This document shows, piece by piece, positions 4,235 through 41,505 of a DNA stretch of 56,348 nucleotides (the first letter of the stretch is position 1; the number at the start of each line of letters is the position of its first letter). Made by a program: the position numbers and the translations under genes. Location: positions 1-56,348 of the IMG/VR virus record IMGVR_UViG_3300025151_000042; one strand, 5' to 3'. This DNA comes from a virus. Under the pieces are notes generated by a model. The model ran no database searches. It saw nothing but the letters and a program-made list of their open reading frames with translations, and was not told where the DNA came from.

Positions 4235-5446
4235 ATGGTAGAGTTCTTAAATAGATATGTTGGAATGAAGAAAGAAGCGACGTATGGTACAGTAGCAACA
4301 GGTGCTATAACTACGTTTGAACACGGAGAAGTTGATGATGAATCATTTGCTACAAGAATGGATTTGTTGACAAGACAAGACATGAGTAGAGCAATTGTTA
4401 GTAAATCTGTAACAGGTACAGAATATTCAGAAGGTGGTTTTAGTATGGCTCTGCAAATTGATGATTTTACAGGAAATGTTTTAGCGGCATTTTTCCCTAA
4501 TACAAGTTATTCAAGTCCAACACATACTTTTGAAGAACCAAGCACAAGTTCACACTCTTACAATTCATACACTTTTACAGTAGGTAGGGAAGATAGAGAG
4601 ATAACTTACAAAGGAATGGTAGCAAACACATTATCGGTAACAGCAAACGTAGGAGAATACGTTATGATGAGTGCTGATTTCGTAGGCCAAAGAGAAGTAG
4701 TTAGAACGGTGGCTTCTAATTATTCTAGTGGTGCTACATCTTTAGTATTATCAGCAGGGCAAGGAGCAGGGCTGCACACATCGGGTACAGGTTTTGCAGA
4801 CGGTAATGCTATTACTTGGTCTAACTTAAGCACAGACACATTAACAGTAGCAGACATAGGAACAGACGTAAGCGCAGGTTCAGTAGTGGAGATTAATCCA
4901 CAAACAGTTACTTTCGCAGGAGACGCAGTTGACGCTCTTTACTTTGCTAACGGTTCAGTAAACTTTGACGATGGAACAGGCACAGCACCGGCAGCATCAG
5001 CAAGTGTTAAATCAGTTGATTTCCAAATAAACCTAAATCCCGATACAGATAACGCATACGCAATAGGAGACAGTACATACGGTAGCCAACCAAAAATGCA
5101 GCGAAGAGAAATCACAGGAACAGTTGAGTTTAACAAAGTTGTGTACTTAGACCAAACACTAGATGAGCCGGATTATTCAGCATTAGTTTCATCAGATGGA
5201 TTAGATTATTCAGACGCAGCAGCAGACCCAACAATGGTACTAAAGTTTACCGATGAAGCGGGTACAAACCACATTACCTTTAACTTCTATCACATTAGAT
5301 GGGAAACACCTACTGCTAACGTAAGCGGAAGAGATACAAATACAATGAGTGTTGGTTTCGTAGCACTATATGATGCAACAGGAAGTGGCGCAGATAAGGC
5401 TATGAATGTAACAATGCGTGGCTCTGATAAAACGTCTGCATACTAA
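4235..5446 (+). CDS. Major tail tube protein
   Basis: 403 residues, beta-rich, no membrane segment, immediately upstream of the tail chaperone genes as in siphovirus-type tails. The N-terminal half (GMKKEATYGTVATGAITTFE) and the C-terminal part resemble long tail-tube proteins. A threonine/serine-rich beta module at about 160-220 is related to those in the connector and hub. It is preceded by a 52-base spacer, so it may have its own promoter, as expected for an abundant protein. Confidence 0.7.
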   Translation: MVEFLNRYVGMKKEATYGTVATGAITTFEHGEVDDESFATRMDLLTRQDMSRAIVSKSVTGTEYSEGGFSMALQIDDFTGNVLAAFFPNTSYSSPTHTFEEPSTSSHSYNSYTFTVGREDREITYKGMVANTLSVTANVGEYVMMSADFVGQREVVRTVASNYSSGATSLVLSAGQGAGLHTSGTGFADGNAITWSNLSTDTLTVADIGTDVSAGSVVEINPQTVTFAGDAVDALYFANGSVNFDDGTGTAPAASASVKSVDFQINLNPDTDNAYAIGDSTYGSQPKMQRREITGTVEFNKVVYLDQTLDEPDYSALVSSDGLDYSDAAADPTMVLKFTDEAGTNHITFNFYHIRWETPTANVSGRDTNTMSVGFVALYDATGSGADKAMNVTMRGSDKTSAY

Positions 5447-39277: not shown

Positions 39278-39502
39278 TTACTCCGACCCCGCCTTTACTA
39301 TTAACCTTTTCTCTTGTCGAATCTCTTCTAATTCTTCTAACATTTTTCTAGTATGTAGTAAAAATGTATTCCACGTATTTTCATCATGAATACTACTTTT
39401 ACCTAAAACATAACTATAATAATTATCAGAAATTATTTTATCTTTTAATTGTCCCCAAAATAATATATCATCTATAGTTTCTTTTTCCTTAATAATACTC
39501 AT
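39278..39502 (-). CDS. Small helical protein, 74 residues
   Basis: N-terminus MSIIKEKE resembles the MSSIEEK leader of two other genes. Helical with a C-terminal coiled coil (TRKMLEELEEIRQEKRLIV). Its 3' coding sequence plus the following start region is nearly repeated at 40258-40285. Confidence 0.5.
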   Translation of the reverse strand: MSIIKEKETIDDILFWGQLKDKIISDNYYSYVLGKSSIHDENTWNTFLLHTRKMLEELEEIRQEKRLIVKAGSE

Positions 39503-39827: not shown

Positions 39828-40151
39828 CTAAAAATCCCTCACTAGTATTGAATCATCATCTAAAACGATGTGGTAAGTGTTATCTTCTAGGTACTCGATT
39901 GTTTCCTCTTGAGTAATACTACTCTCGCCTAAGTAAGCATCTCTTACTTCATATATACCACCCATGTATTGAGTCCACTCGCAGCAAATACCTACAACAT
40001 CTAATTCATAATTTTCTAATTCATCATAATAATCGAATAAAGCCACTATTGCTTTTTCGGTAAAATTACCATGCGTCTCACTAGTTTTCAATCGCCCGTA
40101 TTTTCTAAATGCGTCTATCATTCCGTATTTTCCTATTCTTGTGTATATCAT
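39828..40151 (-). CDS. Conserved phage-type protein of unknown function, 107 residues
   Basis: Start at 40151 overlaps the upstream stop as ATGA. The segment AIVALFDYYDELENYELDVV followed by GICCEWTQY is characteristic of a small protein common in tailed phages (alanine-leucine-phenylalanine helix, then a strand with ICCE). Molecular function is not known. Confidence 0.55.
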   Translation of the reverse strand: MIYTRIGKYGMIDAFRKYGRLKTSETHGNFTEKAIVALFDYYDELENYELDVVGICCEWTQYMGGIYEVRDAYLGESSITQEETIEYLEDNTYHIVLDDDSILVRDF

Positions 40152-40255
40152 TCTTCTTCTCCCCCTGTAAATCTTTTTCCGCATAACCTACAATTGTGTT
40201 CACCTAAAACTCTAGGGCAGCCGGATTCTTTGCATGACATTTTATTGTATCTCAT
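40148..40255 (-). CDS. Zinc microprotein, 35 residues
   Basis: Reads MRYNKMSCKESGCPRVLGEH..., with C8, C13, C22 and C25 forming a zinc site. Its ribbon resembles C-terminal tails of larger zinc proteins. Upstream lies a repeat of the 3' end of the gene at 39278, containing a GGAG ribosome binding site. Confidence 0.5.
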   Translation of the reverse strand: MRYNKMSCKESGCPRVLGEHNCRLCGKRFTGGEEE

Positions 40256-40309
40256 GGTACTCCGACTCCGACTTTACTATTAAGGTTATTGTATTGTAAC
40301 TCTCATTTT

Positions 40310-40514
40310 GTTGGCTTATCCGACTTGTTAATGCTTTATGATTTATACGAGAGCCGTCTACCATGTATTACCATGTCGGTTCGTTGCATATCGGTTACGG
40401 TTTTGGGCTACCACCGTTTATGTAGCCTCGCCAACTTATTCCTGTTGGTCGGCATGGGTGCGAATTACCCAACATTAGGATGTCCTACGCTGACATCACC
40501 GACAGGAATGAGTT
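40310..40514 (+). ncRNA. Candidate structured RNA (three-way junction on + strand)
   Basis: A 17-bp helix joins 40433-40449 to 40498-40514 with two G-U pairs that exist only in plus-strand RNA (minus would give A-C mismatches). Inside are two hairpins with 7-base loops: 40455-40459/40467-40471 and 40479-40484/40492-40497. Upstream, GTTGGC (40310) can pair with GCCAAC (40430-40435), enclosing GGCTAC/GTAGCC (40406-40411/40422-40427) and CCGAC/GTCGG. The outer upstream helix competes with the 17-bp helix for three bases. The region lies downstream of the DUF932 gene and has no credible protein ORF. Confidence 0.55.
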
Positions 40515-40527
40515 ACTTTTACCGTAT

Positions 40528-41505
40528 TTATAGGTACTCTCCTACTAAGGACTCCCATGCCTTAGATTTCATTCTTGAGCCTGTACCAATGATTGCCGAT
40601 TCGACTCTCTTGTCGTTTTGTTTCTCACCTTTGCGGTCATATGTCCACTCATGGTCTAGGTAGTAAGTTACTGTATTGAAAGCAGCGAAAGCACTAGAAC
40701 CGTTACCGTTGTGGTTGTTGGTAGGATGTGCCTCTACTTCTAGTAATCTCTCTAATGTGTTATTACCTCTTGTAGTCAATCCTAGAGGGTTAGTTGCATC
40801 AACTAACTCTTCATTTTGTTTTATCCCAAAAGTATCTAGGTAGAAAGAAACTCTATCTTCTTGAGTCATCTCAATGTTGACTAATTCTTGTGCATCTAAT
40901 ACGAATTGTTGGTTGAGCATATCTACAACTTTCAATGCCTCTACTAATTCAGCAACTCTTTCTTCTTGCTTTGCTGAGTGGCGTATTACTAATTTCTTAG
41001 GGTCGATACCTGCTCTCTTGATACCCGCCATTAGATGGCTGAATTGGTTAGAGCATCCAATAATTACGTTGCTAGGAATTACTCTAATTCCACCGCTACC
41101 GTCATGTGTATTTGTAAGGTAAATGTATTGGTCTACATCATCCCATCCACTAATTGTAAATCCTTCCGGCAATTTGAAAGAAGCGAATAATTTCTCTCCT
41201 TCACCAATCATACCTATCTTATCCCAGTCAATTTCTCCACGTTCTACTAATTCGTTAGCAATGCCTAATAGCCTATCATTCTGCATTGGTACATACGTTT
41301 TACCGACAACACCTAGTGTTGTGTCGTTATCTGTTCTAAAGACTCGATTAAACTTAGACCTAATCGGTTTACCTTTAGAGGTATATAGTGGCTCAATAGC
41401 CACATCGAAGTTAAGTCCGGCGTTAGCCAAGACTTCTTCGGCAGTCGTTCCTTGTGCGTCATTTCCAAATCGGGCAATTGCCCCTAATGTGTTTTTCATA
41501 CTCAT
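40528..41505 (-). CDS. DUF932 (LGT/plasmid-like) protein
   Basis: 325 residues. FRTDNDTTLGVVGKTYVPMQ and the following NDRLLGIANELV, YIYLTNTHDGSG with a basic C-terminal half, and WTYDRKGEKQNDKRVESAII match the DUF932/TIGR03299 family of phage and plasmid proteins. The biochemical role is unknown; it often accompanies anti-restriction or replication genes. It is preceded by a ribosome binding site in the coupled upstream gene (GGAGGACAATAAAATG). Confidence 0.85.
   Translation of the reverse strand: MSMKNTLGAIARFGNDAQGTTAEEVLANAGLNFDVAIEPLYTSKGKPIRSKFNRVFRTDNDTTLGVVGKTYVPMQNDRLLGIANELVERGEIDWDKIGMIGEGEKLFASFKLPEGFTISGWDDVDQYIYLTNTHDGSGGIRVIPSNVIIGCSNQFSHLMAGIKRAGIDPKKLVIRHSAKQEERVAELVEALKVVDMLNQQFVLDAQELVNIEMTQEDRVSFYLDTFGIKQNEELVDATNPLGLTTRGNNTLERLLEVEAHPTNNHNGNGSSAFAAFNTVTYYLDHEWTYDRKGEKQNDKRVESAIIGTGSRMKSKAWESLVGEYL

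Follow-up and report, generated by a model that had tools for sequence, protein, structure and literature searches.

The window covers all 56,348 bases of the IMG/VR virus record IMGVR_UViG_3300025151_000042 and encodes PolB, an AAA ATPase resembling RFC, a chaperonin of the thermosome type, a portal protein, and TerL. From this gene content we take the virus to be a magrovirus, i.e., a virus of the marine group II archaea. The hosts of these viruses are uncultured; they are inferred here, and every copy of the element described below comes from metagenomic contigs. The subject of this work is a gap in a leftward operon, which lies between a DUF932 gene (40528–41505, minus strand; Pfam PF06067, E 2.6e-27), immediately upstream in the sense direction, and a small CxxC-containing ORF (40148–40255, minus strand), downstream of it, which was recognized from its translation and whose end was placed from the sequence; the flanking genes are simple ORF calls. 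The motif TACTATTAA occurs at 40275–40283 and again at 39293–39301, within a 32-bp repeat (91%), with each copy about 20–28 nt ahead of a start codon on the minus strand (at 40255 and 39276, respectively). This is the position expected for the TATA box of leaderless archaeal genes, and it suggests that a new transcription unit may begin just past the element. As for a protein-coding gene over the element itself, a plus-strand ORF of 124 aa could not be recognized as a common feature of the relatives, whose inserts differ in length.

The initial annotation described positions 40310–40514 as a single RNA made from the plus strand, antisense to the operon, and its structural details are confirmed. 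A 17-bp helix (40433–40449 with 40498–40514) is read directly from the letters, and its two non-Watson–Crick positions are U·G on the plus strand and A·C on the minus strand. Within it are two hairpins with 7-base loops, GGGT[GCGAATT]ACCC (40456–40470) and GATGTC[CTACGCT]GACATC (40479–40497); the single-sequence plus-strand fold favors another version of one small hairpin, and the version drawn earlier is kept in a relative, L122, discussed below. The helix GTTGGC (40310–40315)/GCCAAC (40430–40435), which closes a second, upstream domain, is also present, and the bases AAC at 40433–40435 are common to it and to the long helix. On the plus strand the whole segment folds with −69.5 kcal/mol (z −3.88), a value reached by none of 200 shuffled sequences, and on the minus strand with −52.8 kcal/mol (z −1.16). 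Comparison of the window with Rfam gave no match, either at the gathering threshold or at E ≤ 10, and ARAGORN recognizes no tRNA or tmRNA cloverleaf in the region. With no known family to receive it and with compensatory changes present in its homologues, the segment does hold an undescribed conserved structured RNA.

The same segment had been viewed as one RNA with two domains that compete for three bases, and it is better read as two separate tandem cassettes, module 1 (40310–40435) and module 2 (40433–40514), because three other loci (L003, L015, and L016) have module 1 without module 2, and because contig G015 carries them apart, with module 2 following DUF932 and module 1 at another place, upstream of RFC. 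Judged from sequence alone, window positions 40296–40302 could also pair with 40510–40516, thus enclosing both modules and competing with the long helix.

Module 1 lies on the minus strand in the description that follows, with its RNA 5′ end at 40435, and it is recognized by the covariance model of the family with 84.5 bits and E 1.4e-19, the window being one of the model's training sequences. Its core consists of a closing helix P1, a hairpin Pa, a third, extendable helix P2, and invariant junction nucleotides. P1 is formed by GUUGGC (40430–40435), whose outer 3 bp are locus-specific and whose inner GGC is invariant, and by GCCAAC (40310–40315), placed by sequence and covariation. Pa is formed by GGCUAC (40422–40427) and GUAGCC (40406–40411), and across the family 108 of 108 of its cells are paired on the minus strand vs 99 of 108 on the plus strand. 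The strand ACGGU in the Pa loop (40413–40417) pairs with ACCGU in the linker that follows Pa (40397–40401), the latter assigned from the covariation count and the sequence; this is likely an H-type pseudoknot, although less firm than the helices; two of the three counted pairs covary, in what is essentially one event (the short type). P2 begins with AACCGAU (40390–40396, from alignment A1) and returns with GUCGG.UAAG (40315–40324), which is invariant across the columns of 18 sequences and is partly junction, and its tip carries a variable insert (40335–40385) that ranges from a few to more than 100 nt in the relatives. Written 5′ to 3′ on the minus strand, the consensus is GGC-GA-[GRHUAs-loop-sUAGYC]-CNAA-ACCGUAACC...GUCGG-AUAA-GCC. 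In the inserts of L017, L019, and L020, further insertions are bracketed by an imperfect direct repeat of 17 nt, AUAGAUGyAGArCCGUU, and GGUCGGAGAGAGAUUAGAU is common to other module 1 inserts.

The structure is supported by covariation. In the alignment, 93.5% of the cells are paired vs 77.7% after shuffling, 12 pairs show double changes, the cells with double changes number 52 vs 16.8 in the shuffles, and the covariation score is 0.376 vs 0.110, with none of 500 shuffles reaching it. When the partners are slid by 1–3 columns, the paired cells drop to 24–40%, a control that somewhat favors the stated helices, as they were partly read from the same sequences, and that leaves a large margin. RNAalifold recovers P1, Pa, and the CC/GG of P2, and a realignment of the model hits, which is itself fitted to the structure, agrees with the covariation. 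Beyond P1 the flanks are unrelated between sites, yet the two flanks of a copy pair with each other (mean duplex energy −15.6 vs −10.3 kcal/mol, sd 3.4, for swapped flanks), so that each copy sits on its own locus-specific closing stem. Two copies, L020 and L033, show little folding excess. Module 1 is almost certainly a conserved structured RNA family.

Scans with short motifs located module 1 in about 20 further contigs of IMG/VR, giving 18 distinct copies. Among the carriers are magroviruses that share the window's replication genes (G009, G015, G016, G021, and others), contigs of 38–111 kb with divergent PolB/RFC (G005, G008, and G012), and a pair of tailed viruses of the PolA plus DnaG type (G017 and G019). 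The covariance model finds a single copy per contig, except in G009, where the locus L018 has two in tandem; weak additional hits in G009 proved on inspection to be the halves of a single copy split by a long insert, and those in G012 and G013 look the same. Among 84,980 cellular genomes an exact pattern, of a kind that could miss diverged copies, gave 41 chance-like matches, and when these were inspected none was accompanied by the remaining parts of the element. The module 1 consensus was without a match in the phage and plasmid collections; relatives of the portal protein of the window are lacking there too, so that magroviruses seem not to be represented in that collection. A looser motif of the 3′ half gave 86 matches, nearly all of them conserved E. 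coli coding sequence or chance, and no new member; another motif gave 24, of which only the already known members are real. When the other family members were compared with Rfam 15, only two weak, chance-level hits appeared, both for one member.

Regarding the strand, the homologues of module 1 speak against the antisense orientation of the initial annotation, and they are co-oriented with their neighbors wherever the upstream gene was identified. The pair changes in Pa (GC/GU/AU, CG/AU/UG, and CG/GC/UG) are all standard only on the minus strand, and the wobbles of the pseudoknot and of the distal P2 helix favor it as well. Between the two tandem copies of L018, two closing-stem positions have changed from A to G (minus sense), and pairing is kept only on the minus strand. 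The mean folding z of the family is −1.66 on the minus strand vs −1.05 on the plus strand. Wherever the upstream gene could be identified, at about nine independent sites, the element runs in its direction, and usually in that of the downstream gene as well; the argument is limited inside operons, and the probability of such agreement by chance is about 0.002 if both orientations are equally likely. At most sites the element starts 9–51 nt past a stop codon, so that a promoter of its own would hardly fit in the gap. On the other side, the margin for the whole structure is small (93.5% of cells paired on the minus strand vs about 91% on the plus strand), three P1 cells favor the plus strand, and in the window itself module 1 has a stronger fold on the plus strand (z −2.6) than on the minus strand (z −1.0). 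The column pair 50–77 is A·C on the minus strand in 7 of 18 sequences and G·U on the plus strand, and we think that it belongs to the junction and not to a helix. On balance, module 1 is very probably an RNA of the minus strand, sense with the operon and not antisense to it.

Module 2 (40433–40514), with its 17-bp closing stem and two hairpins with 7-nt loops, folds strongly when taken alone (z −5.5 on the plus strand and −2.9 on the minus strand). A BLAST search against the contig sequences used in this comparison returned one relative, at 4922–4987 of L122 on contig G015 (88% over 67 nt), where it again follows directly on a DUF932 gene (38% protein identity). There, the conserved core GTCGG...CCGAC (40448–40503 in the window) is near-identical and both 7-nt-loop hairpins are kept, with a closing stem that is wholly different in sequence but again paired. 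The exact module 2 motif had no match in IMG/VR, its core had none in the phage or plasmid collections, and no copies were found in other module 1 carriers. The wobbles valid only on the plus strand, on which the antisense claim was founded, lie in module 2, whereas its only relative folds slightly better on the minus strand (z −4.4 vs −3.9); the RNA may be made from the minus strand here as well.

The homologues of the adjacent DUF932 gene show that the intergenic region is a patchwork: at this site L003, L005, and L007 have the window's upstream domain, and L004, L006, and L008 have other G/C-rich hairpins. Constant flanks can hold either a short or a long type of core, as in the two copies of L018 and in L003 vs L016, which suggests that the cores of module 1 may be exchanged as cassettes by recombination. 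The L018 copies (1550–1836, contig G009) follow a RadA-like gene, and their near-identical flanks with different cores have the appearance of core swapping. The site after DUF932 appears as a hotspot for hairpin cassettes, with different long G/C-rich hairpins among the magroviruses (L115 14248–14420 on contig G021, L119 4429–4596 on contig G016, L008 4010–4076, L015 10813–10873, and L004 3963–3993) and as many as three consecutive structured units in G021. The tip of the L008 hairpin resembles by eye that of the second G021 hairpin, AGTCTTTT...TGTGTTyGTCATT. Elsewhere on G016 (L119 11144–12367), iterated palindromes of the form (GC)TACAAATTTGTA(GC) form several intergenic hairpins and are possible regulator sites or iterons; these palindromes, which came from a hairpin scan of other contigs, are unrelated.

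The combination of a compact conserved core with variable peripheral stems is one that module 1 has in common with Rfam 15 families in general, such as riboswitches, ribozymes, tRNA, RNase P, and SRP. Like the pistol, twister, hammerhead, and HDV-like ribozymes, it tolerates insertions in its stems and has no association with particular genes, and its H-type pseudoknot beside a helix with an internal loop recalls the layout of pistol. It differs from them in that no small ribozyme of Rfam matches it; to our knowledge, its conserved nucleotides and linker lengths are unlike those of the small self-cleaving classes. Module 2 has in common with purine-type riboswitches a three-way junction with two 7-nt hairpin loops but gives no Rfam hit, and its junction bases are not those known from the purine aptamer. 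The exonuclease-resistant RNAs of RNA viruses likewise place a three-way junction and a loop pseudoknot after a coding sequence; they differ from module 1 in topology, the virus here is a DNA virus, and there is no similarity in sequence or by covariance model. Integron attC sites also form an imperfect hairpin right after stop codons, with a fixed gene orientation and a variable outer stem, but their RYYYAAC/GTTRRRY arrangement is absent here and the wobble pattern indicates RNA. Outside subscription papers, a literature search found no report of a noncoding RNA from a magrovirus or a virus of Poseidoniales, and a paper on magrovirus diversity (PMC10160649) has no mention of a noncoding RNA, hairpin, or intergenic element.

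The genes that flank module 1 are unrelated (DUF932, RadA-like, RFC, methyltransferase, and others without a known function), and no protein is common to all carriers in the pieces examined. A DUF3846 protein (L111 18616–19032) encoded near the element is the only one that a magrovirus was found to have in common with the PolA-type viruses (34% over 79 aa). As the best overall explanation, to which we give an even chance, the gap would hold two cassettes of structured RNA that follow the DUF932 stop codon and are transcribed in the same direction as the leftward operon. Module 1 would then act in cis on the polycistronic viral mRNA, between two cistrons, and it would probably work alone or via a conserved host factor, given that its neighbor genes vary and that the search for a viral protein partner common to the carriers gave none. 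It might, e.g., serve in cleavage/processing or block decay, and in this way uncouple the upstream cistron from the one downstream; we place this mechanism of processing or stability first, as a tentative proposal, and the invariant unpaired bases would argue for a specific recognition or catalytic core more than for a plain stabilizing hairpin.

Two other explanations come next, and we regard both as unlikely. In the first, module 1 would be an orphan riboswitch, whose junction/pseudoknot core binds a small ligand and whose P1 controls downstream translation or elongation, the tandem modules of the window and of L018 resembling tandem aptamers. The conserved unpaired core and the tandem arrangement are in line with it, as are the putative purine-riboswitch-like architecture of module 2, with its three-way junction and two 7-nt loops, and the downstream starts that follow P1 by 15–54 nt at several sites (RFC at 15–27 nt in L025, L032, and L020, methyltransferase at 26 nt in L018, and 46–50 nt in L021 and L017). 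However, the downstream genes are functionally unrelated (RFC, methyltransferase, the small CxxC protein, and unassigned ones), there is a single copy per genome, and no similarity to an Rfam riboswitch. The second would have a viral small RNA released from the mRNA to act in trans, e.g., against a host RNA-binding protein or nuclease, as its decoy or inhibitor, for which position would not matter and one copy per genome would suffice. Essentially single copies at unrelated sites, the lack of a viral partner protein, and the swapping of core types at one site (L003 vs L016, and the two L018 copies) are compatible with this view, but the element is always sense within operons and at several sites starts only 9–17 nt after a stop codon, with little room for a promoter, and a processing step would be required.

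A DNA-level hairpin, i.e., a mobile cassette or a recombination or replication signal whose active form is the folded single strand, is improbable. It would account for the exchange of cassettes within constant flanks, the differing sites in related viruses, the locus-specific stems, and the different hairpins at the DUF932 site in L004, L006, L008, G016, and G021, yet RNA better explains the wobble-compatible changes and the constant orientation relative to genes, neither a transposase nor a target duplication was noted, and the outer repeats do not follow the attC layout, having GTT outside and not inside. Least probable of all is the plus-strand antisense RNA, toward which the window's best single-sequence fold, the module 2 wobbles, and column pair 50–77 point, and against which stand Pa, the pseudoknot, distal P2, the L018 tandem pair, the co-orientation with genes, and the finding of TATA-like boxes upstream on the plus strand in only some copies.

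Returning to the sense, intercistronic cassettes, module 1 is compact and synthesizable, with a smallest core of about 70 nt, and cleavage, ligand binding, and nuclease blocking are directly testable in vitro. If it were catalytic or ligand-binding, module 1 would be a new class of RNA. It is possible, if rather doubtful, that module 1, and perhaps module 2, represent new functional RNA classes, such as a self-cleaving ribozyme or a ligand-binding switch, which would travel as exchangeable intergenic cassettes among the viruses of marine archaea and in at least one tailed virus of the PolA type.
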